A stretch of 64,000 bases of DNA, from contig JADFDG010000005.1 of NCBI GenBank assembly GCA_018262975.1, positions 62,001 through 126,000 on the forward strand, in the 5' to 3' direction. The position numbers were made by a program, and so were the translations under genes. The stretch comes from Gammaproteobacteria bacterium. Lineage in GTDB: Bacteria > Pseudomonadota > Gammaproteobacteria > Pseudomonadales > JADFDG01. This document shows positions 40,063-60,357 of this stretch, in pieces (positions within the stretch are counted from its first letter, which is position 1; the number at the start of each line of letters is the position of its first letter). The notes beneath the pieces are model-generated. The model was given only the letters and a program-made list of their open reading frames with translations. It was not told the origin of the DNA and did not search any database.

Positions 40063-40378
40063 CCTGCACGTGATGGACCTGGCGATGGGCCACCTGCGCA
40101 CCCTCGACTGGTTGGCGCATGAAAAGGGAGTGCTCACCGTGAACCTCGGCACCGGGCAAGGGCACTCGGTGCTGGAAATGGTGAAGGCGTTCGAGCGGGC
40201 CAGTGGCTGCCGCGTGGCGTACGAGATGGCACCGCGCAGGCCGGGTGACATTGCGGCCTATTACGCCTCTGCCGCGCAGGCAGGGAAGATCCTCGGGTGG
40301 AAAGCCACGCGGGGCATCGACGAGATGTGCCGCGACGCGTGGAACTGGCAACAACAGAACCCAAACGGCTACATGTAG
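40063..40378 (+). pseudogene. galE: GalE, 3' part, separated by the IS
   Basis: Begins with the duplicated CCTG, then CAC GTG ATG GAC in the GalE frame (HVMDLAMGHL) and continues to GYM and TAG. NLGTGQGHSVLEMVKAFERASG and KILGWKATRGIDEMCRDAWNW are typical GalE C-terminal motifs. No plausible independent start with a complete domain. The stop TAG lies in the foot of a mutated REP unit. Confidence 0.93.
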
Positions 40379-42333: not shown

Positions 42334-42389
42334 TGGATTTGTCCTTATCCTGCCGGCCCGAGGCCGTACATCTCCATTTCGAACACAGG

Positions 42390-43565
42390 TCAGCGCAAAG
42401 CCAGCGCCGCTACCTCGCGGATTACCGCGCAGGTCTTTTCAATCTCGGCCGGCGTCAGCGTGGGGTGGGTGAGGAACATCAGGCTGGTTTCGCCCAGTTC
42501 CCTTGCCACCGGCAAACGCTCGGCAGGCCGCCAGGGCGTGCCATCAAAGGCCTTTTCCAGGTACACCTCGGAACAGGACCCCGAATAGCACGGCACCCCG
42601 CGGGCCACGATCTCGTTCATGATGCGATCGCGGCTCCAGCCCTCAGCCAGGGCCTCGGGGCGGACGAAAGCATAAGCCCGATACCAGGCGTGTTCCACTT
42701 CGGCGGGTACCGGCGGTACGCGCAGCACGGGTGAACGGCTGCACGCCTCGAGGATGGCGGTGGCGTTGGCAGTACGGGCGCGGTGCCAGTCGGCCATGCG
42801 GCCCAGCTGAATGCGGCCAATCACGCCCTGCATCTCCAGCATGCGCCAGTTGGTGCCGAAGGACTCGTGCAGCCAGCGGAAACCCGGCGCGTGCTGGCGG
42901 TTGTACACCGCGTCGTAACTCTTGCCGTGGTCCTTGTACGACCAGCCGGCACTCCACAAATCCGGACTGTTGGTGGTGAACATGCCGCCTTCGCCACCGG
43001 TGGTCATGATCTTGTCCTGGCAGAACGACCAGGCCGCCGCGTCGCCCAGCCCGCCCACCGGCGTGCCGCGCCATTTGGCGCCATGGGCCTGCGCGCAATC
43101 CTCGATCACGGCGAGGTCATGTTCCAGGGCCAGCGCATTGAGGCCGTCCATGTCGCAGGGCCAGCCGGCCAGGTGCACGGCAATGATGGCGCGGGTGCGC
43201 GGCGTGATCACGCGCGCCACCGTGTCCGGGGTGATGTTCTGGGAGTCGCGGCACACGTCGGCGAACACCGGCGTGGCACCGGCAGTGACGATGGTGCTCA
43301 CCGAGGCCAGGAAGGTGCGCGGGGTCACGATGACCTCGTCGCCGGGGCCGATGCCGAGCACCCTCAGGGCAAGATCCAGCGCCAACGTGCCGTTGGACAG
43401 CGCGACCGCATGCGGCACTTCGCACCAGGCGGCGAATTCCTTTTCGAATTCGCGGCATTCCTGGCCGGTCCAGTAGTTCACCTTGTTGGAGAGCAGCACG
43501 CGCGAAACGGCGTCGGCTTCTTCAGGGGTGAAGCTGGGCCAGGGGGAAAAGGGGGTGTTCAACAT
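42390..43565 (-). CDS. DegT/DnrJ/EryC1 aminotransferase (PglE-like)
   Basis: A 391-residue PLP-dependent sugar aminotransferase. FTPEEADAVSRVLLSNKVNYWTG at the N-terminus, EDCAQAHGA and the cofactor lysine in WSFCQDKIMTTGGEGG (about residue 190) are family hallmarks. Between a PglF-like dehydratase and a PglD-like acetyltransferase it most likely aminates the 4-keto sugar to UDP-4-amino-4,6-dideoxy-GlcNAc. Confidence 0.88.
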   Translation of the reverse strand: MLNTPFSPWPSFTPEEADAVSRVLLSNKVNYWTGQECREFEKEFAAWCEVPHAVALSNGTLALDLALRVLGIGPGDEVIVTPRTFLASVSTIVTAGATPVFADVCRDSQNITPDTVARVITPRTRAIIAVHLAGWPCDMDGLNALALEHDLAVIEDCAQAHGAKWRGTPVGGLGDAAAWSFCQDKIMTTGGEGGMFTTNSPDLWSAGWSYKDHGKSYDAVYNRQHAPGFRWLHESFGTNWRMLEMQGVIGRIQLGRMADWHRARTANATAILEACSRSPVLRVPPVPAEVEHAWYRAYAFVRPEALAEGWSRDRIMNEIVARGVPCYSGSCSEVYLEKAFDGTPWRPAERLPVARELGETSLMFLTHPTLTPAEIEKTCAVIREVAALALR

Positions 43566-43582
43566 GTTCGCACAACCTGAAA

Positions 43583-44242
43583 TTATGACTTGATCAAAGG
43601 CCGGGCCGGATTGCCCACCACCGTGATACCCGCAGGAACATCGCGGGTCACCACGGCACCCATACCCACCACGGCGCCCTTGCCAATGACCAGCGGCTTG
43701 CCGGGGACACCCTGCTTGATCACCGCGCCGGCGCCGATGTAGGCGTGGTCTTCAATGACGATATTACCGTTGCACTTCACGCCGGGCGCGAACGTGACGT
43801 AATTACCGATCACGCAATCGTGCTCCACGTAACTGTAGAGATTGGCCTGGAAGTGCCTGCCGATACGGATGTTCGAGGTGATGGTCACGAAGGGGCTGAG
43901 TGCGGCCCCCTCGCCTATCTGGACATCATCCATCAGGACCGCATTGGCTGCCTGCACGGACCAGAACTGTATTCCGTCCGCGGCAAGTTGCTGCGCGAGC
44001 CTTTCCCGTACCCGGCTGTTGGCAATGCCAATGACCACGTGGCGGGACGATGCGGGCAAGGCCAGGAACTCGGCATACCGGCATACCTGATGGCCGTTGG
44101 CCCGTTCGGCAGCCGGGTTGTCGTCGATAAAGACCAGACGGTCCAGCGGCACACCGGCCGCCCGCAGCATTTCCCGCGCCAGCGGCATGATGCCGCGACC
44201 GCAGCCACTCACCCCGTAGACCGCATACAGCGGGGCCCTCAT
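43583..44242 (-). CDS. Sugar N-acetyltransferase, PglD/NeuD-like
   Basis: A 219-residue two-part enzyme: an N-terminal PglD-type Rossmann domain (LYAVYGVSGCGRGIMPLARE) and a C-terminal left-handed beta-helix of hexapeptide repeats (IGEGAALSPFVTITSNIRIG...VIGKGAVVGMGAVVTRDV). It transfers acetyl from acetyl-CoA to the 4-amino group of the UDP-sugar. Overlaps the priming transferase by four bases. Confidence 0.88.
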   Translation of the reverse strand: MRAPLYAVYGVSGCGRGIMPLAREMLRAAGVPLDRLVFIDDNPAAERANGHQVCRYAEFLALPASSRHVVIGIANSRVRERLAQQLAADGIQFWSVQAANAVLMDDVQIGEGAALSPFVTITSNIRIGRHFQANLYSYVEHDCVIGNYVTFAPGVKCNGNIVIEDHAYIGAGAVIKQGVPGKPLVIGKGAVVGMGAVVTRDVPAGITVVGNPARPLIKS

Positions 44243-44838
44243 GGCGACTTGCTACCGGTGAACTTGCTCATGGTGGCCTCGCCTTCCGCGGAAATACCGT
44301 CGCGGACCAACACCTTCTTTACGGTGAGAAAAAGAATCTTGATATCAAGCCAGAAGGACTGGTTATCCACGTACCACACATCCAGCTTGAACTTGTCTTC
44401 CCAACTGAGGGCGTTGCGGCCGTTGACCTGGGCCCAGCCGGTGACGCCGGGGCGAGCATCGTGACGACGAGCCTGCTCCGGCGAGTAAAGCGGCAGGTAC
44501 TCCATCAGCAAAGGACGGGGGCCGACCAGGCTCATATCGCCCTTGAGTACGTTCCACAACTCCGGAAACTCATCCAGGCTGGACGACCGCAGGAAACGCC
44601 CCAACGCCGTTAGCCGCAGCTCATCCGGCAATGGATTACCTTGTTCATCCAAAGCATCGCGCATGGTACGGAACTTCACCATCAGGAAGGGCTTGCCGTG
44701 CAGCCCAGGGCGAACCTGGCGAAAAAGGATCGGAGAACCGAGATTGAAACGAATCAGGCCGGCCACAACCACCAGCACGGGGGAAAGCGCCAGCAGCCCG
44801 CCTGCGGAAGCAACGATATCGAATGCACGCTTGATCAC
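44239..44838 (-). CDS. Initiating phosphoglycosyl transferase (PglC-like)
   Basis: A 199-residue monotopic transferase that puts the first sugar-phosphate onto undecaprenyl phosphate. VIKRAFDIVASAGGLLAL (re-entrant membrane helix), KFRTMRDA, RSSSLDEFPELWNVLKGDMSLVGPRP and PGVTGWAQVNGRN are the hallmarks of the small PglC type rather than the long WbaP/WcaJ type. GTG at 44838 overlaps the upstream glycosyltransferase stop; the longer frame lacks conservation. Confidence 0.88.
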   Translation of the reverse strand: MIKRAFDIVASAGGLLALSPVLVVVAGLIRFNLGSPILFRQVRPGLHGKPFLMVKFRTMRDALDEQGNPLPDELRLTALGRFLRSSSLDEFPELWNVLKGDMSLVGPRPLLMEYLPLYSPEQARRHDARPGVTGWAQVNGRNALSWEDKFKLDVWYVDNQSFWLDIKILFLTVKKVLVRDGISAEGEATMSKFTGSKSP

Positions 44839-46046
44839 GTCACTGCCCCTTCCACCCACGCCACGAATCGCGCCGCCAGAATATCCCGATCGTATTCGGC
44901 CCTCGCCAACTCGCGAGCACGCTGCCCCATGGCCGGCAGCAGGTCGCGGTGGTCCGCCGCGTGCACCAGGGCATTGGCGAAGGCCTCGGGATCTTCCGGG
45001 CCAACCGGATAGCCGCACTGGCTCTTCTGAATCAGTTCGGCCAGCCAGCCCGGGTAGTTATTCAGTACCGGCAGCCCGGCGGCAATATAGTCAAAAAACT
45101 TGTTGGGGGACGTGCCGTAATAGAAGGCCGGGACGTTGGCGAGGATCTGCATGCCAATATCCGCCGACGCCATGAGACCGGCCAGCTTCCTCTTGGATAC
45201 CGGCGGATGAAAGACCACATTGTCGAGCCCTTCGCGTGCCGCCCGAGCCTGCAGGCCGGGCTTGAGCATGCCGTCACCCACCAGCACCAGTTTGATGTCA
45301 CCACGCCCACGACGCTTCAGAACCGCTGCGGCATCAAGCACGGCATCCAGGCCATTCGCCAGACCATGAGTGCCAGTAAAAATCGCCATCAGATCACTGG
45401 CAGCCACGGATTCAGGACGCCACGGCTCGACCGCTTCGGCAAAGATGTCCAGATCGCAGCCGTTGGGCACCGCTATTACACGGTCGGACGAAATCCCGCG
45501 TTTCATGATCCCCTCGACAATGCCCGGGGAAAGACCGATCAAACGATGGGCCGAGTGGTAGGAAGCCCATTCCAGGACAGACATCATCGCCAGCACAACG
45601 GGATTGGTAATGACTCCCATGGCCTTGGGCAACTCAGGCCAGAGGTCGCGCACTTCGAAGACGAATGGCTTGCCGCGCAGCCATCGCGCGAAGATGCCCG
45701 GAATGCCCGCGGTCAGTGGCGTGGTGGTGGCGAACACCACGTCACAGTCATGGCGCAGCGCAACCATTATGCTGCGCCAGGCAAACAGCAGGAAAACCAG
45801 CGCCCGGCTAACGAACCCCATCTTGTTGGAGTACGGCAACTCGAACTCGATGACATCAATGCCACTGACGTTCCCGGTGCGGCGCCCGTGTTCGAAGGCC
45901 TGCTCAAGCCCCGTATGCCCGGTGCTGCCACAGACCATGGTCACTGTATGACCACGAGCGATGAGGCGACGCGCCATTTCGTAAGATCGCGTCCCGGTCG
46001 ACCCCTGAGGTGTCGAAAAGTGCTGGTGAAAATAGAGGATCTTCAT
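44835..46046 (-). CDS. Glycosyltransferase family 4 (WbuB-like)
   Basis: A 403-residue GT-B enzyme. ILYFHQHFSTPQGSTGTRSYEMAR is the usual WbuB-type start; FEVRDLWPELP and FYYGTSPNKFFDYIAAGLPVL form the nucleotide-sugar binding half. It adds a sugar (often FucNAc-like) to the lipid-linked primer; the actual donor is unknown. ATG 46046 overlaps the heparinase-like stop as ATGA. Confidence 0.85.
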   Translation of the reverse strand: MKILYFHQHFSTPQGSTGTRSYEMARRLIARGHTVTMVCGSTGHTGLEQAFEHGRRTGNVSGIDVIEFELPYSNKMGFVSRALVFLLFAWRSIMVALRHDCDVVFATTTPLTAGIPGIFARWLRGKPFVFEVRDLWPELPKAMGVITNPVVLAMMSVLEWASYHSAHRLIGLSPGIVEGIMKRGISSDRVIAVPNGCDLDIFAEAVEPWRPESVAASDLMAIFTGTHGLANGLDAVLDAAAVLKRRGRGDIKLVLVGDGMLKPGLQARAAREGLDNVVFHPPVSKRKLAGLMASADIGMQILANVPAFYYGTSPNKFFDYIAAGLPVLNNYPGWLAELIQKSQCGYPVGPEDPEAFANALVHAADHRDLLPAMGQRARELARAEYDRDILAARFVAWVEGAVT

Positions 46047-47884
46047 GAATTCCACTCAACGATCGTCCGGATCGTGCCAGCCTGACTGACCTCAACCTCA
46101 AGAACGGGTAATGCTGTTTTCTGCAGGTAATAACGGGATTCCCAACCCTCTGCCAGCGCCATACGATCAACCGGCAGGTCCGTCACAACGGTCAGTCTGA
46201 CGCGACCGTTGGTCCATGTAGTGCGCTCACGCGTCCACTCACCGGGCTGCAAGCGCCAACGCAGGACGGCGTTCTTGCGGAAGCCGGCAACCCGGTCCTC
46301 CACAACCATACGGCCAACCTCCAGAGCAACCTTGCGCTGGTGTTCCGCGCGCCAACCATCCCGATATCCAACCTCAACCCTATCGGCCACTTCGGTGGTG
46401 ATGAACACCGGCTTGCCAGACACCTTGAGCCAGTCGCCGAACAGGAAGCGACTGATGCGCGGCATCTGGTCCCGACCGTCAAACTGAACGGTGTTGTGCG
46501 ATCCGGTGCCCGGGAAGTAAGACAGCCACTCATCCCCGGCGTTGTAGCTGTAGGAACCGGCGTCACGAAGCACATTCTCACCGTCCAGCCACAAATCAAG
46601 GTGCAGGGCATCAGCCTGACTCGGGCGGAAACGGAAGCGAGGATAGCGCAAAGCGACAAAGGCCCGCCCCCTGTAAAGACAGGCATAACCGCCGTCATCA
46701 AACAGCCGCGTCACAGGAGGCGGCTCAACCTGGTCCGGCACGGGCAAGCCAAGCCAAAGCAAGGGTTCATTCCAGCTACCCGCACCTGACCATGCCGATT
46801 TGCCTGAAAACAGGGTCATGGCTAACTGCACGGATGGCCGGTAGTCGCGGTAATCAGTTACCGACAACGGCAGGAGGCGCGCCCCGTCATTGGCACCGAG
46901 ATTGGGAGCATCCCCGTTATCCCCGCGAGTCATGGCACGCAACCACTTCGTTGCGGCCTGCGCACGCTCATAGAACAGCGCGGAGAAAGCATCCAGCGCA
47001 AGATCCCGGCGCCAGAGTTCGGCCATGGACAAAGTGTCCAGCATCACGCGATGGTAGTTCACCGAGTATTGGCTGAAGCTTCCGTCGGGGGAGATCAGCC
47101 GGGCAATGCGGTTCTCCAGCCAACGGCGCCCCATGGCCTGCCACTTGGCGCCGCGCGAAGCGGGCCGGTGCCTGTAGAGCCAGCTTCCGCCAATGAATAG
47201 CGCCGCCGCCTCGGATGTGCCGTGGTTGTTGTCTTGGGCGACTGCATAGCCAATGGTGGGCGCGATGCGCTGCAAATGAAGATCTATCAAGTCGAGCAGG
47301 CTGTCCGACGGTGACGAATGTTGCCCTAGAAGACGCGCCGCCATGGCCAAATGCATGACACGAATGGATGCTTCCTGGCCGCACTTCCAGTTGGGTCCGA
47401 GATATGGCGGATTGGCCCGGCTCCAATCACAGAGCCACGCGTCCAGACGTTGCAACGCTTCCTTATCTCCGGCCACAGCATGCTGGGCACAAGCAAGCAC
47501 CCAGTCGAAGCGGGACGCTTCCCAAACCACCTTGATGTCGCCAACGCGGCCGTCGAAGTCCGGAATCTGCCACCAAGGTCGGTCCGGTTGCCCTATCGCC
47601 TGACCGAGCAGCACATTGGCATGCCATGCAGGTGGCACTTCGCTAATAGGCAGCTCAAAGACGCCAAAGTAGCGGAGCGATGCATACCAGTTGGCAGGCA
47701 GCGGCGCTCCGCACAACATTTGCGTCATGCGCTGATCAACAAAGAAAGGGCCCTGTGGTACCGGCGCCACAAGGCTCCGCACCGGGTTCACCCCGGTCCT
47801 TACGCCCAAGCGATATGCCAGCACCCGCAAGAGGTTCATCACCCCGAGCAAGTACGCCGTACGCGCCTTTGTAACCAGCAACAT
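46043..47884 (-). CDS. Heparinase II/III family protein (alginate lyase-like fold)
   Basis: A 613-residue protein with an N-terminal alpha/alpha-toroid (WYASLRYFGVFELP; NPPYLGPNWKCGQEASIR; AQDNNHGTSEAAALF) and a C-terminal beta domain (HLDLWLDGENVLRDAGSYSYN; GTGSHNTVQFDGRDQM). N..H and Tyr residues expected for polysaccharide lyase catalysis are present. No signal peptide. Such genes commonly sit next to bi-domain oxidoreductase genes in surface-polysaccharide loci; the polymer target is unknown. Confidence 0.8.
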   Translation of the reverse strand: MLLVTKARTAYLLGVMNLLRVLAYRLGVRTGVNPVRSLVAPVPQGPFFVDQRMTQMLCGAPLPANWYASLRYFGVFELPISEVPPAWHANVLLGQAIGQPDRPWWQIPDFDGRVGDIKVVWEASRFDWVLACAQHAVAGDKEALQRLDAWLCDWSRANPPYLGPNWKCGQEASIRVMHLAMAARLLGQHSSPSDSLLDLIDLHLQRIAPTIGYAVAQDNNHGTSEAAALFIGGSWLYRHRPASRGAKWQAMGRRWLENRIARLISPDGSFSQYSVNYHRVMLDTLSMAELWRRDLALDAFSALFYERAQAATKWLRAMTRGDNGDAPNLGANDGARLLPLSVTDYRDYRPSVQLAMTLFSGKSAWSGAGSWNEPLLWLGLPVPDQVEPPPVTRLFDDGGYACLYRGRAFVALRYPRFRFRPSQADALHLDLWLDGENVLRDAGSYSYNAGDEWLSYFPGTGSHNTVQFDGRDQMPRISRFLFGDWLKVSGKPVFITTEVADRVEVGYRDGWRAEHQRKVALEVGRMVVEDRVAGFRKNAVLRWRLQPGEWTRERTTWTNGRVRLTVVTDLPVDRMALAEGWESRYYLQKTALPVLEVEVSQAGTIRTIVEWNS

Positions 47885-47900: not shown

Positions 47901-50039
47901 CTACTGGCTTCTCAGAAGCTGAGCAGCCTGAATAGTCACGCTGGCCACCTCAAAGATCTCATCCACCGGAATTGGCGCTGGCTTGCCCTTGGCGACAGCA
48001 TCCAGGAAGGCGGCCGAACAAGCCTCCTGTCCTTTATCCTGCCGCCAAAGATTCATTTTTCCGAAGCCGGGCCAGCCGTAGCCCTTGAGCTTGCGGAAAT
48101 TATCCAATTGCAGAACTCGACCAGCCGCAAATACCTCGACGCGCTCCTTGGGGAAACTCGCAGCGCCGTTCGCAAGATAATGAATGGTGCCAAATGATCC
48201 GTCTGCAAAGCCCAACGTGATGGAAGCCTTGTCCTCGGAAACCTGGACACCCGGAGCATTGCCCATCCGCCGAGCCTGAACAGACACCACCGGCGAACCG
48301 GCGAGATAACGCATCAAATCGATGAAGTGGCAGGCCTCGCCGATGATCCGACCGCCGCCGACTGCGGGATCTTGCGTCCAATGTTCAGAGGGGATAGCCC
48401 CGGCATTCATGGTCATGATGAAGGATTTTGGCTCCTTAACAGCACCAAGCAGTTCCTTCATCTTGACGACCTGCGGCGCAAATCGTCGGTTAAAGCCCAC
48501 CATGAGGTGCCGCGGCGTACTGGTCGCCACCACACGCTGCCACGCGTCCTTTACCAAGCCAAGCTCGTCTTCCGTGATGGCCAAGGGCTTTTCTACGAAC
48601 ACATGCTTTCCAGCCTCAAGCGCCTGCACAACGAATCGGGCGTGAGTATTGTGACGGGTGACAACGGCAACAGTGTTGATATCGGGATCAGCCAGCATGG
48701 CAGCCACATCCGTGGATGCCTGGGCAAATCCAGCCTTTTCGCCGTGAATGACGCCGTTTATGCCGCCGGCTGTCACAATCGTATGGAACTGTGCCCCAGC
48801 CTTCTTGAAGGCCGGAATCAGCATGCGCGATGCGTAGTTACCCGCACCGATAAACCCACAGACAGGCTTGGCAGAATCAAACTGAATACCAGGATTCAGC
48901 GTGACCTGCCGCTGGACCAAGTCAACCGCCGCCGGGTTGTACTGCAGCAAGATACCGAGAGCTTTCTTGTCCGCGGTCAGCACCTCATAAGCATCAGGGG
49001 CGCTATCGAATGCGAAGCGATGCGTAATCAACGGCTTAACGTCCAGGCGGCCATCCGCCATCATGTCAAGCACCGCCTCGAAGTTCCGCTGCTCGGTCCA
49101 GCGTACAAATCCGAAGGGATAATCCTGACCGTGCTCTTCGTAAGCAGGATCGTAACGCCCAGGACCATACGAGCAGGAAACCTGGAATGACAGTTCTTTC
49201 TCGTAAAAATCAGCCCGATTGAGTTCAAGTCCGGTCACACCGACCAGTACAATGCGGCCACGCTTGCGCGACATACGCGCGGCCTGCATAACGGGGTCCG
49301 ATGACGGCGTGGACGCGGTAATGATGACACCATCAACTCCGCGACCACGACTGAACGCCATGCCGGCCGCGATGGGGTCTTCCCCCCTACCGGGATTACA
49401 CGTTTCCGCACCAAACTGGCGCGCCAATGCCAACTTGTGCTCGTCAAAATCGATGGCCAGCACGCGGCAACCTTGAGCACGCAGCAACTGGACGGTCAGC
49501 AGTCCGATAAGACCAGTCCCAGTCACAACAAAGGTTTCTCCCAAGGTGGGCGCAGCCAAGCGAATCCCTTGAAGCCCAATGCTGGCGACGACAGTAAAGG
49601 CCGCACTTTCGTCATCGACCGCATCGGGAATACGTGCACACAAGTTCTTCCCGACCTTTACGACCTCGGAATGAGGACCGTTAGACACGACCCGATCACC
49701 GGGGGTAAATCCAGCTACTTCCCCGCCTACAGCCGAGACAACACCGACATTGCAGTACCCCAATGGCAGCGGCTGGCCCAATTTTGAACGAACAGCGTCA
49801 ACGGTGGCCAACAACCCATCGGTCTGGACCTTCTCCAGAACCATCTTTACCTTCTCGGGCTGCCGCAAGGCCTTATGCGCAAGAGATGCTCGCCCAAATT
49901 CAACAAGCATGCGCTCGGTGCCGGCGGATATTAGCGACGCGGACGAAAATATAGCGAGCTCATGGGAATTGGGAATTGGGCTTGGACTCTCTTGGAGATA
50001 TGTCATACCGCCCCCCAGGTCCTGCAAAATCTGCCTCAT
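47901..50039 (-). CDS. Bi-domain oxidoreductase: zinc-type dehydrogenase plus Gfo/Idh/MocA
   Basis: A 712-residue fusion. Residues 1-350 resemble a medium-chain alcohol dehydrogenase (PGDRVVSNGPHSEVV; FVVTGTGLIGLLTVQLLRAQG). Residues 385-712 are a Gfo/Idh/MocA oxidoreductase (VCGFIGAGNYASRMLIPAFKKAG; HVFVEKPLAI). Found in many polysaccharide clusters, where it is thought to modify an activated sugar acid; the reaction is not settled. G+C is lower than in the flanking chromosome. One base separates it from the upstream acetyltransferase gene. Confidence 0.82.
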   Translation of the reverse strand: MRQILQDLGGGMTYLQESPSPIPNSHELAIFSSASLISAGTERMLVEFGRASLAHKALRQPEKVKMVLEKVQTDGLLATVDAVRSKLGQPLPLGYCNVGVVSAVGGEVAGFTPGDRVVSNGPHSEVVKVGKNLCARIPDAVDDESAAFTVVASIGLQGIRLAAPTLGETFVVTGTGLIGLLTVQLLRAQGCRVLAIDFDEHKLALARQFGAETCNPGRGEDPIAAGMAFSRGRGVDGVIITASTPSSDPVMQAARMSRKRGRIVLVGVTGLELNRADFYEKELSFQVSCSYGPGRYDPAYEEHGQDYPFGFVRWTEQRNFEAVLDMMADGRLDVKPLITHRFAFDSAPDAYEVLTADKKALGILLQYNPAAVDLVQRQVTLNPGIQFDSAKPVCGFIGAGNYASRMLIPAFKKAGAQFHTIVTAGGINGVIHGEKAGFAQASTDVAAMLADPDINTVAVVTRHNTHARFVVQALEAGKHVFVEKPLAITEDELGLVKDAWQRVVATSTPRHLMVGFNRRFAPQVVKMKELLGAVKEPKSFIMTMNAGAIPSEHWTQDPAVGGGRIIGEACHFIDLMRYLAGSPVVSVQARRMGNAPGVQVSEDKASITLGFADGSFGTIHYLANGAASFPKERVEVFAAGRVLQLDNFRKLKGYGWPGFGKMNLWRQDKGQEACSAAFLDAVAKGKPAPIPVDEIFEVASVTIQAAQLLRSQ

Positions 50040-50040
50040 C

Positions 50041-50553
50041 TTAATCTCGCTCTCGAATCACTTTTGCCGGAACACCCGCCACGATCACAAAGGGAGGAAC
50101 ATTTCGAGTCACCACACTACCTGCCGCCACGACCGCTCCTTCGCCAATGGAAACCCCTGGCAAAATTACACAATGTGCGCCAATCCAAACATCGGAAGCG
50201 ATGCGCACCGCCCCCCGTAAGTGGCCGGCACCAAATATTCTACCCCTAGTGGCCGGAACCACATGATTCGACGAAAGGATCTGCGTGTAGTAGCCAACCA
50301 AAGTTCGATCACCGATCGTCACGCCCCCATCAGTTGTGATTAGGACCCCCAAAGCCAGATCCACATCATCACCGAGCTGCAGATTGCGGCCAGTACAAAC
50401 CCAGACCCCAGGGTAATACACCACCCGCCTGCCAACCCGCGCGCCCAGCAGGCGTAGAAAGGCGGACTTAAGCGAATTCAATGCCCTATACCGCGGCAAA
50501 GAGAAAATGGCTCTCATAACCATCTCGAAGGTGACTACCAGAAAGTACTTCAT
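50041..50553 (-). CDS. Hexapeptide-repeat O-acetyltransferase (WcaF/maltose-acetyltransferase-like)
   Basis: A 170-residue left-handed beta-helix acyltransferase ([70 protein letters not shown]) with the catalytic-type His in SSNHVVPA. Likely acetylates a sugar residue of the surface glycan. Low G+C. ATGA overlap with the gene upstream. Confidence 0.82.
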
Positions 50554-51683
50554 TTCGCCGCCCTAAGATTCTTCCAAATACCTGCCGCCCGTTGCTTCTG
50601 GCTGGGCAATCGATCGAGATTTTCCCTTCCAACCATAAGCATGCGCATTACATCCGCGCTCGGAGCCGAGATTATTGACTCAATTGCACTGACCACAGAC
50701 GGAACACTATGGGGGTCACAGTAGAGGGCGCTCTCCCGACAGATTTCCCGGGCGAAATCACGATCAGAGCAGATTAGGACGGTCGACGTTCGCCAAGCCT
50801 CCATATAGTTATTCGAATAGCTCTCGAGATCGGACAGACTAATAAGGACCGAGCATCGCGCGTACAGACCGCCTATGGCTTCCGGACCAACTGAACCAAT
50901 AAAGTCAAAGCAGTCATCAAGAATCCCGCTATCGATTACCGAATGCTTCTCTACCGCCTTCAAGCACCGCAAGAAATCCCGGCGAGAAAAGCTGCAAACA
51001 AACCGCACACGACTACCATTACGGCGCAAGAGCTCAGCAACCTCATACAGGCGCCACGTGTTTTTATGGTACGCAACCCCACTTAATACCAATACCTCCA
51101 AAATGTTGCCGGCCACAGGCCGACGATCTGACGGAGCGATATCGGGTATAAATTCACTTGGAGATGGCGGCGAGACAAATATCTCCACATCTGCACCTAA
51201 GACCGACAACAATCTTTTCCGCATCACCTCCGTCTCGCAAAGGATTGTTGTAGCCCGCCTAAGTCGCGAGATCCTTACAAAGTTCCACAGCCTCTTTTTA
51301 AGTCTCTCAATCCGAGGAACATATGACCAGTATGGGCTATCCTCATAGCAAATAATCGGATACGCGACACTTACGACAGCGCGAACACCGTTAGTCACGG
51401 GCATGCCTGCTCCAAAAAACGTGTAGATGCTCTCGACTTGGTACTTTCGCAACAGGCGAGGAAATTGAACATACTCAAACAGGGCTCGCCCAATAAGGCC
51501 ATTTGGCACGACCCCTACAACACTGAACTCACCATCACACAGTCTTTGAGCGATCGCAGCACTTACTACTAAGTGGACATCTACCGAATTGTGAAGCTCC
51601 TCCTTGCTTACCGAAAGAAAGTTGGACGCGAGTTGAAGGCCGCCTCCAGATTTGATCGCCGATAGATCAATTAAGTAAGACAC
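50550..51683 (-). CDS. Glycosyltransferase family 1/4 protein
   Basis: A 377-residue GT-B-like protein. [25 protein letters not shown] and [17 protein letters not shown] (the donor-binding E-x7-E-like region) suggest a GT4-type enzyme, although the N-terminal part is poorly conserved. The donor and acceptor are unknown. Low G+C and many rare codons set it apart from genes outside the block. Confidence 0.75.
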
Positions 51684-51990: not shown

Positions 51991-53256
51991 CTAACGTTGG
52001 CCGGGATACCCCCCCTGCGTCGACCATGCAAACTTGTGAAAGACGTATACCGCAAGCATCGGAACGTTTTGGATTACGCCAAAGAGAAATAGCGACGTAA
52101 CCCCGTCTCGATACACCTGAATAAACGACACCATTACTGCCAAATAGACATACATTGCGACCGATCGGCTGCCACCCGACAGCGCCAAGCAGAACCAGCG
52201 AGTAAGTACCCAAGCCAACACAAAGGGAATAAGGACAATTCCAACATACCCGAAGTTTACATAGGCCTCTCCCAAGTACGTAATAATCCGACCCTCTTTA
52301 TCATAGGGACGATCCTGTGTTGCCATGGCGATGGTGTGATCGCCGAGCCCCGGTTTGTCCGGCCAGATTGCCCTAGGAATAAATAGGGTAATAGCACTCA
52401 AATAGGTTTCACCGAAATATCTAGTCCCAAACTCATCGGAAAGGGTCAATGCTCCGGCGAACTGATCAAGGAAGGTTGATTTGGCCTGGGCATCTTGCTC
52501 CACAAGCAGAAACGCCTGTCGTATACGGTGACTAATTTCCTGGGCATCGCCTGCCTGATATGCCATCCCGATATATTTTAGTTGCGGGAACAGCAGGACA
52601 AGTAGGAGTCCAATCAAGGCAACCCTTTGATTCGGCCATCGCAGGTTTCGTTGCGCCAAATACGATGACATGAGAAAAATCATCGGCAGCACCATCATGA
52701 AGCGATGATAGCCTTGGAGTGAGACCACAATCAGCAAGGCCCCGAGACCAACAAGAAGATACCAGCGAAATCCCCACACATGTATTGCAAGACATAGCGC
52801 CCCGATAGGCCACATTGAAAAGACCTTATAGAGCTGCTCCCCCGCGCCGAAAATTTCCGCGCTATTCCGCGTAAGCAGAAAGAATGGCATACCCGCCAAT
52901 AGGAAAAAGACGACTATGTAGAGCACCTTTCGCGGATTCAACTCAAGCCGCGAAACCTTGGCCCTCGGCCTACTAGGCGCGCATAGCACCCCCAACCCAA
53001 ACAAAATTAGCGCAATATCCGCAACAATAATCGCCCGAGCAATCTCCCCGCTGTCGATCATCCTGAACGCAAGAACGTCGCCATATAGCGGCACATCACC
53101 CAGCGCCAAACCAACCAGCCGTATTGAGAAGGCGTATACATGGAAGAACAGATAGACAGTCGCCGGATGAGCAAACGTCAACCTTCGATATAGCAGCGCC
53201 AAAAATGCCCCGACGCAGACGACGTCGAGAATCACAAGCCCAAAAAGGTCGTCCAT
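51991..53256 (-). CDS. wzy: O-antigen/oligosaccharide repeat-unit polymerase (Wzy-like)
   Basis: A 421-residue inner-membrane protein with about ten to eleven hydrophobic helices and a long periplasmic loop (about residues 260-345, with SDEFGTRYFGETYLSAITLFIPRAIWPDKPG), the pattern of Wzy polymerases that join undecaprenyl-linked repeat units. The sequence between genes for a Wzx flippase and glycosyltransferases supports this. Low G+C, as usual for wzy. Confidence 0.75.
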   Translation of the reverse strand: MDDLFGLVILDVVCVGAFLALLYRRLTFAHPATVYLFFHVYAFSIRLVGLALGDVPLYGDVLAFRMIDSGEIARAIIVADIALILFGLGVLCAPSRPRAKVSRLELNPRKVLYIVVFFLLAGMPFFLLTRNSAEIFGAGEQLYKVFSMWPIGALCLAIHVWGFRWYLLVGLGALLIVVSLQGYHRFMMVLPMIFLMSSYLAQRNLRWPNQRVALIGLLLVLLFPQLKYIGMAYQAGDAQEISHRIRQAFLLVEQDAQAKSTFLDQFAGALTLSDEFGTRYFGETYLSAITLFIPRAIWPDKPGLGDHTIAMATQDRPYDKEGRIITYLGEAYVNFGYVGIVLIPFVLAWVLTRWFCLALSGGSRSVAMYVYLAVMVSFIQVYRDGVTSLFLFGVIQNVPMLAVYVFHKFAWSTQGGYPGQR

Positions 53257-53270: not shown

Positions 53271-54395
53271 CTATTTCAATTGACGCAAAATCATCTCGGC
53301 GCGAATCTGGCAAACGGATGTATGCCGCTCAAACAAATACCAGACCAGATAACCGGCGGCTATAGCGCACAGAAGAGCAGACGCAAACAGCAGTAGCGCA
53401 GGCATACCAAACTGTTGCCGCGCCCCACCCGTAGCAGCCCCAACAACAAGCACAACTAGTGGCAAATGGGTTGCGTATAGCGAATAGGAAATCTTCGCGA
53501 AGAAAGTCGAGATTCGAGAAAGCCCATGCAACGGCAGCGGCCGATCTACAGCCGCATGTATCAGCAGGGAAAATGCAATGGCAACACATACATCCATCCA
53601 AATCGATGGGGCAGCCTTTACGGAAAGGGTTATTGCGCCAAGAAAGGTCGTCATCGCCAAAAGAATATATTTAGACGAAGCGTGACCACGCGAGTTGAGC
53701 CCAGGTCTACCCCTTAGGTGCGCGACGAGGGCGCCCATGGCCCAAATGCCGAAATAGCCCGCCCCCTGCAGCCCGGACAGCCCTACAAAGCCAAGCAGAG
53801 CCAGAAGCGACGGCCAAAGTAACCGCCCGTTTCGAATCGAAAGTGGATACAGTATCGCTGGAAATAGAATGTAGAACCAAAATTCGTACGCCAAACTCCA
53901 TAGCGCGCCATTTGAACCAAATGTCTGCACTATGATCGACTGAAGAAAAAAGATGTTCCCTAATAGTACATCTGGAGCCAAGCGCCCACTGACGTCAAAG
54001 TTAATTAGCGCGCCACTTGATTGGCCGGCATACAGAGATTCCGCAACACCCGTGGATATGCCAACATAATCCAGAATAAGGGTGAGCGCGAGCGCGGGCA
54101 GCAAGACAATGGAAAGCCGGATATAGCGACGAAGTATGTATGAGCGGAAATTCCAAGATCCCCTCCGCATAGAAAATATCGCACTTCCCCCAACCAAATA
54201 CCCACTCAAAACAAAGAATACGATTACTGCCTGATGGCCGAGCGCGGTCACGAAATAGAAGGCTAACTGAAGAGTCCCACCCCCATCCCAAGGCTCAAAG
54301 ATGAGCGCCCTCAGGTGCCCTGCGACCACAAGAAGTGCCGCCATCCCCCTAATCAAATCCAGGACATCATCATGCCTAGATCCAGCATCGCTCAT
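53271..54395 (-). CDS. Acyltransferase family 3 (OafA/NodX-like) membrane protein
   Basis: A 374-residue protein with about ten membrane helices. LDLIRGMAALLVVAGHLRAL contains the conserved R and H of this family, followed by IVFFVLSGYLVGG and SLAYEFWFYILFPA. It would O-acylate a glycan residue using a cytoplasmic acyl-CoA. Low G+C. ATGA overlap with the upstream glycosyltransferase gene. Confidence 0.85.
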   Translation of the reverse strand: MSDAGSRHDDVLDLIRGMAALLVVAGHLRALIFEPWDGGGTLQLAFYFVTALGHQAVIVFFVLSGYLVGGSAIFSMRRGSWNFRSYILRRYIRLSIVLLPALALTLILDYVGISTGVAESLYAGQSSGALINFDVSGRLAPDVLLGNIFFLQSIIVQTFGSNGALWSLAYEFWFYILFPAILYPLSIRNGRLLWPSLLALLGFVGLSGLQGAGYFGIWAMGALVAHLRGRPGLNSRGHASSKYILLAMTTFLGAITLSVKAAPSIWMDVCVAIAFSLLIHAAVDRPLPLHGLSRISTFFAKISYSLYATHLPLVVLVVGAATGGARQQFGMPALLLFASALLCAIAAGYLVWYLFERHTSVCQIRAEMILRQLK

Positions 54396-55573
54396 GAGTT
54401 TATCTCCCAGAAGATCTTCTCCGAGCGCTCAAAGCAAAACTGCTTTGCTGTCTCATAGGCTCGAGATGACATCTGCTTGAGGAGATCTTCATTAGCCAAG
54501 AGCTTTTCCAGGCTCGAGGCAATCTCGGGTGCCGATCTGGCTGAAACAACAAACCCGTTCTCACTATCCCGAACAACCTCTCCACAATTCCTAGTTGCAA
54601 TCACGGGAAGTCCGAACGACATTGCCTCAAGCTGTACCTGCCCAAACCCATCAGAAAGGCTTGGAAACACCAACACATGGGCTTCAAGGTATTGCTCAGT
54701 CAACTGCCTCCTATTGATGTGCCCGAGGAGCGTAACTTTCCACCCCCTAGCGGCCATGAACTCTGGCGAGATATGTACCGCACCTGCCGCGACAAATTCA
54801 TATCTATCCCTTAGCAGCTTTTCAGCCTCAGCAAAATATTGAAATCCCTTTGCAAGGCATACGCTGCCTACGAACAATACCCTTGGCTTTTGTCCTTGCT
54901 TTGGCGGAACCAGAGTTCTAGTCGACTCTGGCATCTGCACACTTAGCGGAAGGATGGCAACCTTCTCTGGTCGCACGCCTCGACTAACGATCGCCGCTTT
55001 CGAATGCTCGGAGTTCACAATAATCGAATCAGCCTCCTCCCATTCAGCGTGGAGTCGGTCAATGTACCTTGCGTTAGGCAACATCACCGTCGGTTCCGCG
55101 CCAGGCCACATATCTGACTCTTCTTGACGCATTTCATACCAAGCAATGCCCGGATCGATTTGGCCGTACACAGCCCTTGCGCCCACGCTGTGGGCCAAGC
55201 GGATAACCTCTAGCCCTGCACAGGTATATGCAAAGACCGTATCTCCATCATCGATCCCAACGGAAGAAATTCTGCGGCTTGCCCAGTCTCCAAATGATCG
55301 CCCCTCGTAGCACCAAGCATCAAACCTAGTAAAGCGCCGTAATGCTATCCGTTGGGCTATCGAATAGACATTTCGAGACATCACTCGAGCACCCACCAGC
55401 TCACTATTGAATCTACTCTTCATCCTATACAACGGGCCCGGCAAATCAACGCGATTTGCCCACGGGATCCACATGTCGGTGGAAAGAGACTTCAGCAGTG
55501 ACTTCTTGTGTAGTAGGCGTGGTATCAGGTATGACTCACGCGCACCAATTTGAGTTGCATGCCAGCCCATCAC
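54392..55573 (-). CDS. Glycosyltransferase family 4
   Basis: A 393-residue GT4 enzyme: RVLFVGSVCLAKGFQYFAEAEKLL and LVFPSLSDGFGQVQLEAMSFGLPVIAT (donor-binding EX7E region) are clear. It adds one sugar of the repeat unit. Low G+C. It overlaps the flippase gene by four bases. Confidence 0.87.
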   Translation of the reverse strand: MMGWHATQIGARESYLIPRLLHKKSLLKSLSTDMWIPWANRVDLPGPLYRMKSRFNSELVGARVMSRNVYSIAQRIALRRFTRFDAWCYEGRSFGDWASRRISSVGIDDGDTVFAYTCAGLEVIRLAHSVGARAVYGQIDPGIAWYEMRQEESDMWPGAEPTVMLPNARYIDRLHAEWEEADSIIVNSEHSKAAIVSRGVRPEKVAILPLSVQMPESTRTLVPPKQGQKPRVLFVGSVCLAKGFQYFAEAEKLLRDRYEFVAAGAVHISPEFMAARGWKVTLLGHINRRQLTEQYLEAHVLVFPSLSDGFGQVQLEAMSFGLPVIATRNCGEVVRDSENGFVVSARSAPEIASSLEKLLANEDLLKQMSSRAYETAKQFCFERSEKIFWEINS

Positions 55574-56751
55574 AATCGCGCCCCATTTATCCGGGCCTCT
55601 ATTTTGTCTATAACCAGCAAGAGAATGAGGCCAAAGATTCCAGAAGCCGCATAGAGGTACAAAAATTCTGCCAAACCAACGTCAAGGAGGCGCGACACTA
55701 TTGTCATAGAGACAACCAGAATTACGAACGCCATCTCCCCATATAGAACGGCAACACTCCTACCAATAATCTTCATCAGCCTCACAAGGACAACCCGGAA
55801 GTTAGACACAACCCCAACCAACGCAACCGCCGATGAAATATCAACCATTGGCAAATACTTATCTCCGAGCACCAATTCAACAACTACTGGGACGACTGCG
55901 GTCATTAGCAATGCCACGACTATTAGCACTAAAGCCAATTTCGAGAGTAGGAAGGCATAGGTCTCAATGTTGGGATCAACATCACCTACAAGCTTGGAGA
56001 GTAGCAGCGTTGCGGTAGCTTGGCCGACTACAGCCAAAGGAGCACCGATGATGGTCATTCCGACTAGGTAGTGCGCCACTTCAGAACTCGAAAACAAAAG
56101 AGATGCCGCGACCCTATCAAACTGCGAAGCAAGAACACCTACCACAGCAGCAAGGCTTATCACGCGCCACCTATGCCACTCAACCTGTACTGGCTCAGCC
56201 AACTCGTTGCGGCCGGTGCCACCAACAACCAGCGCCGCATACAGAATAAGGTTAGATGCGAGGTTGGCGGCCAGCAGCCATTCGACAGAGAAATCGCCTA
56301 GCGACCAAAGCACTGCTAGGCCTACCATGTAGCCAACCGGCTGAATTAATTTATAGACCGAAAGCACATGCACCTTGCCTAGCAGGGTAATCTGCGCAAT
56401 CTTCACTGCGGAATAGAAATTCAATGGCACAAATAGCAGGGCGTACCAAAGGAATCTTGACAATCCATCTATCGCGAGAATCGCGCACAGTGCGAGAAAA
56501 GTCACAATGCAAAGAAGCACAACGTCGCGACGCAAGAATGGAAATCTGGAAGGTTTTCGCCCTGAAAGATAATAATCGACATGCCCAGTCAAGAAAGCCC
56601 CAGACAAAAGAGTTACCCATATGAGCACCTCGCCAAACACACCCCGATCCTCCACCGAAGCGCATCTCGCGACCAGAATTCCCCCAGCAAATCCCAACCC
56701 AGTAATTATTGCGTTAGAGGTTAGGAGACTTGCCATTCTTAATCGCGACAT
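55570..56751 (-). CDS. wzx: Oligosaccharide flippase (Wzx-like)
   Basis: A 393-residue polytopic protein with about twelve helices, of the MOP/polysaccharide-synthase fold (NAIITGLGFAGGILVARCASVEDRG at the N-terminus; FDRVAASLLFSSSEVAHYLVGM in the middle). It moves the lipid-linked unit across the inner membrane. ATG 56751 is preferred to 56778 because GAGGG precedes it and the longer version overlaps wecC. Low G+C. Confidence 0.8.
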   Translation of the reverse strand: MSRLRMASLLTSNAIITGLGFAGGILVARCASVEDRGVFGEVLIWVTLLSGAFLTGHVDYYLSGRKPSRFPFLRRDVVLLCIVTFLALCAILAIDGLSRFLWYALLFVPLNFYSAVKIAQITLLGKVHVLSVYKLIQPVGYMVGLAVLWSLGDFSVEWLLAANLASNLILYAALVVGGTGRNELAEPVQVEWHRWRVISLAAVVGVLASQFDRVAASLLFSSSEVAHYLVGMTIIGAPLAVVGQATATLLLSKLVGDVDPNIETYAFLLSKLALVLIVVALLMTAVVPVVVELVLGDKYLPMVDISSAVALVGVVSNFRVVLVRLMKIIGRSVAVLYGEMAFVILVVSMTIVSRLLDVGLAEFLYLYAASGIFGLILLLVIDKIEARINGARL

Positions 56752-56761
56752 CGAGATGCCC

Positions 56762-58021
56762 TCAATCAGTAGACTCACGACGGGGCAGACCTAACCTCCC
56801 TCTCGTATCTATGGCCACCTTTCCATCAGGAATTGTTATTCCGTCAAAACACTTGTGGTCGACAAGGAGCAAAATTATATCCGCCGCATGAATCGCGTCA
56901 TCCAAGCTCACGACCGGCACCTCAGGAACCCACTTCACAACATCTACGACATGAGGCTCGACCGCAATCACATCTACTTCTTTGCACGCCGAGAGCTTTT
57001 TCGTAACTTCTACGGCAGGACTTTCCCTTAGGTCATCTATATCGGCCTTAAAGCTTAATCCCAAGCACGCAACCACGGGTTTTGGCTTCGCAAGACTTGC
57101 CGCAACATTGCGAACTCTGCTTACAACCCAGTCTGGCTTCCGGTCATTTACCTGCCGTGCCGTTGCAATTAGGCGAGCCTCATCCGGCGCGGACGCCACA
57201 ATAAACCACGGATCCACCGCGATGCAGTGCCCGCCAACACCTGGGCCAGGCTGCAGGACATTTACACGAGGATGGCGGTTCGCGAGAGAAATCAGCTCCC
57301 ATACATTGATCTGCAATTTTTCGCAAATCATGGAAAGCTCATTGGCGAATGCTATATTCACATCCCGGAATGAGTTTTCCGTCAGTTTGCACATCTCCGC
57401 CGTCCGCGCATTCGTGACGACGCACTCCCCCTGCACAAACAACTTGTAAAGGCTCACCGCCGCCCGTGAGCACTTCGGCGTCATGCCGCCAATCACGCGG
57501 TCATTATTGACCAACTCCACCAACACCTTCCCCGGCAACACCCGCTCCGGGCAATGCGCCACGCACACATCGGCATCTTCGCCGGCCTGCTGCGGAAAGC
57601 TCAGGTCCGGCCGCGCTTCGGCCAGCCACGCCGCCATCTGCTCGGTAGCACCCACCGGCGACGTCGATTCGAGAATGACCAGGTTGCCCTTCTTGAGCAC
57701 CGGCGCGATCGCCTTCGCAGCCGCCTCGATGTACTTCAGGTCTGGCTGTTTGTCTTCCTTGAACGGCGTCGGCACCGCCACGATGAAGGCATCCGCCGGC
57801 TCCGGCTTGGTGGTGGCACGCAGGTTGCCCGACTGCACCACCGAGCGCACCACGATATCCAGGTCGGGCTCGATGATATGGATGCCGCCGCTGTTGATCG
57901 TGTCCACAGCCTTCTGGTTCACGTCCACGCCAATCACCTTCAGCCCGCGCGAGGCAAAGGTGGCGGCGGTGGGCAGGCCGATATAGCCCAGGCCAATAAC
58001 GGAGAGGGTTTCAAACTTCAT
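56762..58021 (-). CDS. wecC: UDP-N-acetyl-D-mannosamine dehydrogenase WecC, compositionally mosaic
   Basis: A 419-residue NAD-dependent UDP-sugar dehydrogenase that oxidises UDP-ManNAc to UDP-ManNAcA. Motifs: VIGLGYIGLPTAATFA, LTENSFRDVNIAFANE, catalytic Cys in GVGGHCIAVDPWF and FKADIDDLRESPAVE. Start ATG 58021 (MKFETLSV). Base composition changes abruptly near 57480 (about residue 180): the first part is GC-rich like the chromosome, the rest is AT-richer like the wzx-wzy block, which indicates a recombination junction inside the gene. Confidence 0.93.
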   Translation of the reverse strand: MKFETLSVIGLGYIGLPTAATFASRGLKVIGVDVNQKAVDTINSGGIHIIEPDLDIVVRSVVQSGNLRATTKPEPADAFIVAVPTPFKEDKQPDLKYIEAAAKAIAPVLKKGNLVILESTSPVGATEQMAAWLAEARPDLSFPQQAGEDADVCVAHCPERVLPGKVLVELVNNDRVIGGMTPKCSRAAVSLYKLFVQGECVVTNARTAEMCKLTENSFRDVNIAFANELSMICEKLQINVWELISLANRHPRVNVLQPGPGVGGHCIAVDPWFIVASAPDEARLIATARQVNDRKPDWVVSRVRNVAASLAKPKPVVACLGLSFKADIDDLRESPAVEVTKKLSACKEVDVIAVEPHVVDVVKWVPEVPVVSLDDAIHAADIILLLVDHKCFDGITIPDGKVAIDTRGRLGLPRRESTD

Positions 58022-58053
58022 GTGATCGCCCTTGTTTGGCATGTCGCAATGAC

Positions 58054-59181
58054 TCAGTGCGTGGACAGTGCGCGCGCGATGCGCTCGCAGGCCTTGCCGT
58101 CGCCGTAGGGGTTATGGGAAAACGCCATGGCCTTGTAGGCATCGGCATCGTTCAACAGGGTCGCCGCTTCGCGGCAGATAACGTCGGTGTCGGTGCCCAC
58201 CAGCTTCACGGTGCCGGCCGCCACGGCTTCCGGGCGTTCGGTGGTGTCACGCATCACCAGCACCGGCTTGCCCAGCGACGGCGCTTCTTCCTGGATGCCG
58301 CCGGAGTCCGTGAGGATCAGCGTGCTGCGGTCCATCAGGTATACGAACGGCAGGTAGTCCTGCGGATCGATCAGATGCACGTTACCAATGCCGCCCAGCA
58401 GGCGCTTCACCGGCTCCTGCACGTTCGGGTTGAGGTGCACCGGGTAAAGCACCTGCACGTCGGCATTTTCCCGCGCAATGCGCGCCAGCGCTTCGCAGAT
58501 GCGCTCGAAGCCGCCGCCAAAGTTCTCCCGGCGGTGGCCCGTCACTAGCACCAGTCGCTTGCCGGCGTCGAGGAACGAGAACTGCGCGGCAAAGCGCTGT
58601 TGCAGGGCTTCATCGCTGCGAATCTTGTCGCGTACCTGCAGCAGCGCATCGATCACCGTGTTGCCGGTGACATGGATTGCGTCCGCGCTTACGCCTTCGC
58701 GCAACAGGTTATCGCGTGATGCCGTGGTGGGTGCGAAGTGCCACTGGGTCAGCACGCCGGTAAGTTTGCGGTTGGCCTCTTCCGGCCAGGGCGAGTACAG
58801 GTTGCCGGTGCGCAGGCCTGCTTCCACGTGACCCACGGCAATGCGCTGGTAATAGGCAGCCAGCGAGGCGGCAAACGTGGTGGAGGTGTCACCGTGCACC
58901 AGCACCACGTCCGGGCGCCATTCGGCGAACACGGTCTTCATACCCTGCAGTACGCCGCTGGTGATGTCCGTGAGGTCCTGCCCCGGCTTCATCAGGTTCA
59001 GGTCAAATTCGGGCTTGATACCGAACAGCTCCAGCACCTGGTCGAGCATTTGCCGGTGTTGGCCGGTCACGCACACGCGGGCATCGAAGGCGCTGTTGGC
59101 CTTGAGGGTCTGTACCAACGGCGCCATCTTGATGGCTTCGGGGCGGGTACCGAATACGAGCAGGACTTTCGTGGCTTCCAT
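58054..59181 (-). CDS. wecB: UDP-N-acetylglucosamine 2-epimerase WecB
   Basis: A 375-residue non-hydrolysing epimerase giving UDP-ManNAc for Wec[16 protein letters not shown] at the N-terminus, [29 protein letters not shown] and [21 protein letters not shown] are diagnostic. GC-rich. First gene of the minus-strand polysaccharide operon; the 5' leader reaches to the REPs at 59438. Confidence 0.95.
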
Positions 59182-59437
59182 GTCAATGCGCTGCGATTAC
59201 GTTGCGGGCGTCCGCGGGTGTTCCGGGTATGGGATCAAGCCCCGGGCCTGTGCAGGCGCCATGGAGTGTTTCACCACGGGCCGCTAGACGGCCCGTGCCG
59301 GGGGTTGAGTCCATTCGATTGGCGTCCCTTGGTGCTGAGGCTGTGCCGTCCCGGGAGCCCGGGGATTTGGGGGCGCATTGTGCCCCAACGGGTGTGGAAT
59401 TCTAATGACCAATTTGGGGGATGTGGCGCGCGGATCT
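59182..59437 (-). promoter_or_regulatory. Leader region of the polysaccharide operon
   Basis: No gene seen in 256 bp. It contains a perfect 9-bp hairpin CACGGGCCG-N5-CGGCCCGTG at 59275-59297 without a T-tract, and a TAGAAT hexamer on the minus strand (59404-59399) that could be a -10 box. No JUMPstart/ops element was found. Confidence 0.4.
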
Positions 59438-59589
59438 GTAGAGAGGGGGCCATGCCCCCGATCTGTCGGCGGGGATCGCGAACAACCCGACGGGTGGTCG
59501 GGGGCATGGCCCCCTCGCTACGAAGAGCGGTCGGGGGTGTGGCCCCCGCGCCGCGAAAGGCACAGTCGGGGGCGTGGCCCCCTCGCTAC
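59438..59589. repeat. REP quadruplet, site 23
   Basis: Forward 59438-59461; reverse 59498-59521, 59531-59554 (degenerate: TGT loop and altered foot) and 59566-59589. It lies between the divergent polysaccharide operon and the small secreted-protein gene and is the first REP after 19 kb without any. Confidence 0.93.
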
Positions 59590-59703
59590 ATAGAAGGAAG
59601 GGGGTGTAATGGTTTTGGCGTTGAGCTTGGGCGGGTGGGGCTGTAGGATGCCGGGACTTGTTATGGCCCGGTGTGGGCCGCACCGTTTCCGGAGGGACCC
59701 CTC

Positions 59704-60273: not shown

Positions 60274-60292
60274 TCCGGGTGGCTGTACGCTG

Positions 60293-60319
60293 AAGGCCGG
60301 GCATGTCCCGGCCTTTTTT
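60293..60319 (+). terminator. Intrinsic terminator
   Basis: AAGGCCGGG-CATGT-CCCGGCCTT followed by a T-run, 20 nt after the stop of the secreted protein gene. Confidence 0.92.
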
Positions 60320-60333
60320 GTTCCTGCTGTTGT

Positions 60334-60345: not shown

Positions 60346-60357
60346 TTGGGTGTGTCC

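Follow-up and report, generated by a model that had tools for sequence, protein, structure and literature searches.

In enterobacteria, the serotype locus is exchanged through crossovers that fall in genes beside it, gnd and galF among them. The locus that we describe here, built around the gene wecC, resembles those cases in that a conserved flanking gene would supply the homology for replacing a cassette; however, gnd and galF lie outside the variable pathway, whereas wecC is itself one of the cluster's sugar-nucleotide genes, so that an exchange within it would rebuild a pathway enzyme. The locus is found in a stretch of 64,000 nucleotides from a gammaproteobacterium of the order Pseudomonadales, which we call the window.

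Replacement flexible genomic islands, as described in the main text of PMC4033161, are swapped by homologous recombination: they comprise surface-glycan clusters that occupy a fixed site, with contents varying among relatives, and their borders carry recombination signatures, one border tending to be the sharper. The window is like these islands in holding a surface-glycan cluster with one edge sharper than the other. It differs in that the islands were recognized from pairs of strains and from SNP peaks in other flanking genes, whereas the border in the window is read from the composition of a single genome; a word search of the same main text finds no word beginning with 'wec'. Comparable too is the wbm O-antigen locus of Bordetella, where a GC-rich genome (~67%) houses lower-GC variable regions between conserved bounding genes, and where some of the predicted recombination breakpoints fall inside genes (PMC3849452). 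The window shares with it the GC-rich genome, the lower-GC variable region, the conserved bounding genes and a probable breakpoint within a gene; however, the passages of PMC3849452 on the Bordetella locus concern other genes (wbm), compared directly between strains, and wecC is not the junction that they report. In Vibrio parahaemolyticus, the passages of PMC7829505 that name wecC list it in 5 of 40 capsule groups, with one duplication, and not as a crossover site.

Replacement-type polysaccharide islands are thus a known process, while for wecC as the crossover or splice gene we found no description in the titles and abstract openings of the open-licence literature. What the window would add is a concrete crossover gene for the exchange of coat-sugar cassettes, wecC, paired with a bi-domain oxidoreductase as the second anchor. 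It would also furnish a testable rule, namely that breaks of composition or identity within wecC flag coat switches, even where there is one genome per species.

The wecC gene and its cluster

All genes of the cluster considered here are on the minus strand. The wecC gene (56762..58042) has an intact frame of 426 residues with a mosaic composition. Against NF008286, the NCBIfam equivalog model for WecC, the protein reaches 694.7 bits (cut-off 459), and a Pfam search recovers the complete three-domain architecture (PF03721, PF00984, PF03720), with the NAD-binding domain at residues 13-196, the central domain at 213-300 and the UDP-binding domain at 325-415. The top-scoring solved relative is Cap5O, whose alignment spans residues 8-402. 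By family score and domains, the predicted product is UDP-N-acetyl-D-mannosamine (UDP-ManNAc) dehydrogenase. A protein search of the genome for paralogues returned just two distant relatives (33% and 27% identity), and a DNA search of its 29 contigs (99.95% complete) found wecC as a single copy with no partial remnant; hence, we rejected a second copy as source or remnant.

The first-pass annotation had pointed to a sharp change of codon use and G+C near 57480, within wecC, and this change is confirmed. In 300-bp windows the GC falls from 0.65 (57450-57749) through 0.56 (57300-57599) to 0.49-0.51 (windows covering 56550-57149). GC3 is 0.84 for residues 1-218 and 0.51 for residues 219-426: the maximum-likelihood change-point lies after residue 218 (57389), with a logLR of 26.7 and a 2-lnL interval of residues 214-228 (57401-57359). 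None of 5000 permutations matched this value, the largest permuted one being 12.4, and the largest logLR among 18 chromosomal ORFs of the window, selected for high GC3, is 12.3. With a step, the fit improves by 6.6 lnL over a linear gradient, and a transition ~20 codons wide is still compatible with the data. A scan of synonymous-codon log-odds, with wecB, the wbpM-like gene and the aminotransferase set against six cassette genes as the reference, peaks at residue 191 (2-unit interval residues 154-204, 57581-57431), and the peak moves to residue 197 (57452) when the 18 chromosomal ORFs are used. The GC3 and codon-usage estimates are therefore 27 residues apart and their intervals do not overlap. 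Many of the codons at residues ~166-218 still end in G or C, yet they include TTG and GGG, to whose use GC3 is blind. As the two measures place the change differently, we give the junction as a combined range, 57359..57581 (residues ~154-228), which includes 57480. On its 5' side (57582..58042) the codon use of wecC is like that of the chromosome, and on its 3' side (56762..57358) like that of the cassette. The further claim, that the GC-rich part is like wecB and the AT-rich part like wzx and wzy, agrees with codon usage: the N-terminal part resembles wecB (GC3 0.82), and the C-terminal part resembles wzx (0.52), wzy (0.57) and the neighbouring glycosyltransferases (0.53).

Upstream, on the backbone side, the neighbour is wecB (58054..59181), a non-hydrolysing UDP-GlcNAc 2-epimerase by its match to TIGR00236 (532.9 bits). 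Downstream comes a run of low-GC3 genes. It opens with the wzx-like gene (55570..56778), a putative flippase on the strength of its position and of the earlier annotation, whose protein matches no Pfam or NCBIfam family. This is followed by a family-4 glycosyltransferase (54392..55573; by Pfam, GC3 0.53), an acyltransferase 3 (53271..54395; PF01757, 0.53), a wzy-like oligosaccharide repeat polymerase (51991..53256; TIGR04370 at 35.1 bits, below the cut-off of 40), a second glycosyltransferase (50550..51683; by Pfam) and a WcaF-like hexapeptide acetyltransferase (50041..50553; under the family cut-off, 0.56). At the far end from wecC, the bi-domain oxidoreductase (ADH + Gfo/Idh/MocA; 47901..50039, GC3 0.62), which is a candidate for the 3' anchor of the cassette, borders this most AT-rich block of the window. 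The 3' flank (40369..47884) comprises heparinase-like (GC3 0.69), wbuB-like (0.72), sugar transferase (0.67), neuD-like (0.78), aminotransferase (0.85) and wbpM-like (0.90) genes, of which the labels wbuB and wbpM are ones that we presume, their family matches being below the cut-offs. Taken together, wecB, wecC, the glycosyltransferases, the wzy-like gene, the acetyltransferases, the sugar transferase and the wbpM-like gene point to a cluster for surface glycan synthesis, some of these matches being below the cut-offs. No tRNA gene, the mark of an additive island when it stands at a border, is present anywhere in the window.

When the operon from wecB to the wbpM-like gene is divided by GC3, the stretch from wecB to wecC residue 218 has a value of 0.83 and that from wecC residue 219 to the bi-domain oxidoreductase 0.54; past it the value is 0.68 as far as the sugar transferase, then 0.82 and then 0.91. 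The 5' edge of the AT-rich block is thus sharp, and the 3' edge is graded, GC3 generally climbing over the seven genes from the bi-domain oxidoreductase onward (40369-50039). A clean second edge inside the bi-domain oxidoreductase was rejected, since 664 of 1000 shuffles reach its internal GC3 step, which is not significant. The earlier description of wecC as one edge of an exchange was right about that edge, and the opposite one is not sharp. Within the graded region, a possible additional junction is a weak GC3 step (0.50 to 0.73; 17 of 1000 shuffles) at residue 72 of the sugar-transferase ORF (44239-45018), whose start may be mis-set, as the preceding gene ends within it and covers its first ~61 codons.

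Exchange at wecC in other genomes

A direct comparison is offered by two genomes of the genus g43 (G079 and G369), which belongs to the same order as the organism of the window. Across residues 10-150 the DNA of their wecC genes is 99% identical, a figure that falls to 46% across residues 320-415, and the identity of third positions in the same two segments is 0.96 and 0.30. In bins of 60 nucleotides, the first 160 codons are 95-100% identical and those past the junction 38-77%, the junction itself lying at nucleotides 502-509 of the gene (codon 168-170). GC3 falls at this point as well, from 0.61 to 0.37 in the one genome and from 0.56 to 0.37 in the other. Similarity resumes 15 nucleotides ahead of the match to the bi-domain oxidoreductase and holds at 94.7% over 6.5 kb; on the upstream side there are long matching stretches of 89-94% identity, and the flanks as a whole are 89-95% identical. 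Between these anchors lie cassettes of 7915 and 8634 bases (GC 0.396 and 0.381, respectively). When their plus-strand ORFs of at least 150 residues were compared by blastp (E 1e-5), the cassettes shared, wecC apart, only a weak similarity among hexapeptide acetyltransferases (28-44% over 54-114 residues). At the level of the genome sequences, this shows a coat-cassette exchange with its edges inside wecC and at the bi-domain oxidoreductase. The start of wecC (95-100% per bin) is more similar between the two genomes than is wecB (82-100% per bin). Upstream of wecB, in locus L192 at ~2700-6600 and the corresponding part of locus L191, numerous short direct and some inverted repeat matches are seen between G079 and G369.

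The window and this pair are alike in the junction within wecC, the bi-domain oxidoreductase at the 3' edge and the low GC of the cassette. However, the exchange in the pair is read from a direct genome comparison, whereas the border in the window is read from the composition of one genome. Moreover, the junction of the pair is ~20-50 codons nearer the start of wecC than the two estimates for the window (residues 191 and 218), while falling within the codon-usage interval of the latter (154-204).

A coincidence of composition and identity is also found in Limnohabitans sp. 2KL-1. Its wecC has a GC3 step at residue 285 (0.73 to 0.28; logLR 41.2), where its DNA similarity to another Limnohabitans ends (codon ~284). 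This is the only one of 87 other wecC loci with a GC3 step exceeding that of the window. The comparison took in 88 loci of 50% identity or more, counting the window, and among these L002 and L045 are one gene; dropped from it were 23 of the 111 matched loci, 21 for lying below 50% identity and two that had been shortened by the frame finder. A step of the size seen in the window is absent from most wecC loci that stand beside lower-GC cassettes. The linker between the NAD-binding and central domains (residues 196-213) overlaps the junction interval, but we rejected it as the cause of the break because 86 of the 87 other loci have no such step.

Survey of wecC loci and ancestry of the two halves

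Of 100 loci that exceed 8 kb, not counting that of the window, 98 contain wecB. The bi-domain oxidoreductase of the window is present in at least 23, this count being a lower bound as most of the loci stop ~8 kb from wecC: in 20 it lies 1.2-9.2 kb downstream of wecC (two of these at only 38-39% identity) and in three upstream. Three genomes of the genus g43 (L196, L197 and L198) have it between wecB and wecC rather than downstream. The wzx-like gene, the first glycosyltransferase, the acyltransferase and the wzy-like gene of the window have no match in these 100 loci at E 1e-15. Flanking genes common to other genomes around a middle that differs are thus seen, though only across other genera and orders.

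The composition of wecC was also compared by thirds in the 99 of 133 distinct genes with enough flank, a set that includes G079 and G369, leaves out the window for its short flanks and is made up of loci that are not all independent. The Enterobacterales were used as controls because we take their wecC to be a gene of the enterobacterial common antigen operon. Of 25 loci outside the Enterobacterales whose GC drops by 0.08 or more across wecC, 21 have a lower GC3 in the last third of the gene than in the first; the same holds for 6 of 29 Enterobacterales loci and 14 of 45 other loci. In pairs whose N-terminal parts are 0.80-0.85 identical, the median identity of the C-terminal third is 0.47 outside the Enterobacterales (632 pairs) and 0.68 within them (224 pairs). 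The C-terminal third diverges faster than the N-terminal part in the Enterobacterales as well, so that part of its divergence is ordinary. Such faster evolution would explain part of the pattern, but it would not produce the GC3 steps, nor the fall of third-position identity at one place in G079 and G369. The mean DNA identity across 68 wecC genes, 0.62 overall, rises to 0.74 at residues 161-170 and to 0.70-0.82 over residues 211-280; some stretches of the N-terminal part are as conserved as these.

We then turn to the ancestry of the halves, for which the organism of the window is the only representative of its genus and of its family in the survey. Among 390 genomes of the order, its own included, the N-terminal half is found in 54 (E 1e-60) and the C-terminal half in 55 (E 1e-50). 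The best identities besides the window itself are 76% and 63%, respectively, in the order, and 74% and 63% in 369 genomes of the class; hence, neither these genomes nor the named relatives hold a donor for the C-terminal half above ~63-65% identity. The first-pass annotation had proposed separate phylogenies of the two halves, and these establish neither a separate nor a common placement for them. In quick trees of 67 rows, the N-terminal half sits in a large group, and its end branch is short (0.15; median 0.17). The branch of the C-terminal half is long (0.94; median 0.43), and this half is placed weakly (support 83) beside the group 'class B' and L148. In a constrained test of 40 rows, joining the window to class B is rejected for neither half (p 0.486 for N, 0.648 for C). 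When each half was placed on a fixed 59-row backbone, from which seven mostly long-branched rows had been excluded, the N-terminal half accepts 7 of 115 branches and the C-terminal half 51, all seven being common to both. The best placement of the C-terminal half is rejected by the N-terminal data (p 0.0003), and the best placement of the N-terminal half is unrejected by the C-terminal data (p 0.11).

Several apparent signs of discordance were set aside. Class B supplies the top hit for the C-terminal half among the genomes of the order, but named relatives from other orders match or exceed it, and a profile log-odds of +17.9 assigns this half to neither class (the median of class A being 130 and the values of class B -17 to -116), so that the hit ranking was dropped as a sign of discordance. 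The correlation between the identity profiles of the two halves is -0.09 for the window, the second lowest of 128 (median 0.52), and several other rows are nearly as low, so that it was not retained as proof. If the donor was a close relative with another coat, as may be the case in G079 and G369, a deep discordance of the halves is not expected.

Explanations for the break

We consider it probable that a polysaccharide cassette, of O-antigen or capsule type, has its 5' edge at the break and was exchanged by homologous recombination with wecC as its 5' anchor. In this process a double crossover, within wecC on one side and at the bi-domain oxidoreductase or past it on the other, would have replaced the cassette in an ancestor. 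The chromosome would have kept the half of WecC that binds NAD, while the central and UDP-sugar-binding half would move along with the AT-rich wzx, wzy and glycosyltransferase genes. A crossover in conserved wecC sequence would retain the reading frame and the domains, and we propose this as the reason why both are intact. The 3' anchor is most likely the bi-domain oxidoreductase together with the genes that follow it, and the gradual composition edge on that side may have been left by crossovers at varied places or by older exchanges. The first-pass annotation went as far as to name wecC the homologous anchor of a serotype-switching exchange. An exchange edged by wecC is what G079 and G369 display; for the window's own lineage, we infer the exchange from the composition step and the case of that pair in the same order, and a different sugar coat, i.e. 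a serotype switch, would be its product. Selection by phages or host immunity, which has been proposed for such loci (PMC4033161, PMC3849452), may drive the exchange of the cassettes.

On a broader and more tentative reading, which we think unlikely, wecC is a recurrent splice point: the cofactor half would stay, the sugar-nucleotide half would arrive with each cassette and co-evolve with its glycosyltransferases, and the step would show how far homologous exchange on the backbone side has reached over the long term.

Other explanations lead to a break of this kind by different routes. The whole cluster, wecC included, might have been acquired long ago in an AT-rich state, with frequent homologous exchange with relatives that have this part in common raising the GC of just the backbone-side part of wecC, in which case the step would be the limit of recurrent conversion and not the mark of a single import. 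GC-biased conversion can be part of such exchange. In keeping with this, the GC3 of the backbone side (0.83 from wecB to wecC residue 218) is a little below the 0.86 of the chromosomal reference ORFs, themselves chosen for high GC3, the recovery on the 3' side is graded, and the start of wecC in G079 and G369 is more similar than wecB, as if converted later; however, a single exchange accounts for the step equally and with fewer events, and we regard this history as unlikely. The break could also have arisen with no recombination at all, from a codon constraint specific to a domain or from a gradient of composition along the gene or operon. That the C-terminal third is more divergent than the N-terminal part in both groups of wecC compared, and that a gradient is present on the far side of the AT-rich block, would fit such a cause. 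Yet the step outperforms the linear gradient, 86 of the 87 wecC loci compared with it show none as large, and the step is at third positions, with the neighbours on each side matching their own half of wecC. This explanation is accordingly disfavoured and very improbable.

An assembly artifact, in which the wecC genes of two organisms were joined at a conserved stretch, is suggested by the conservation of wecC and by the change of composition at one place. Against it, the frame and all three domains are intact. The longest exact run of aligned DNA against 68 relatives is 28 nucleotides, which is short for an assembler to join, although the true donor is not among the 68. Moreover, the AT-rich block grades back to chromosomal composition on its other side within the same contig of 199,803 bases, and in the nearly complete 29-contig genome the gene occurs once, with no partial duplicate found by DNA search. 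Hence, we give a chimera hardly any credence, and retain the exchange of a cassette through wecC as the best explanation.

Outside the polysaccharide cluster, the window is rich in a short near-palindromic element, GGGGGCATGGCCCCC, of which it has 61 copies with at most one mismatch as against 0.02 expected; the genome has 549. The density of ~1 per kb in the window is well over the genome mean of ~1 per 6 kb, and the copies are often close pairs in opposite orientation. They are found at 1355-40444 and 59445-63300, with none in the cluster (40445-59444), a distribution that may partly reflect the tight packing of its genes. The window also encodes a HipA-like protein (33580-34881) with a match to the HipA N-terminal domain (TIGR03071).
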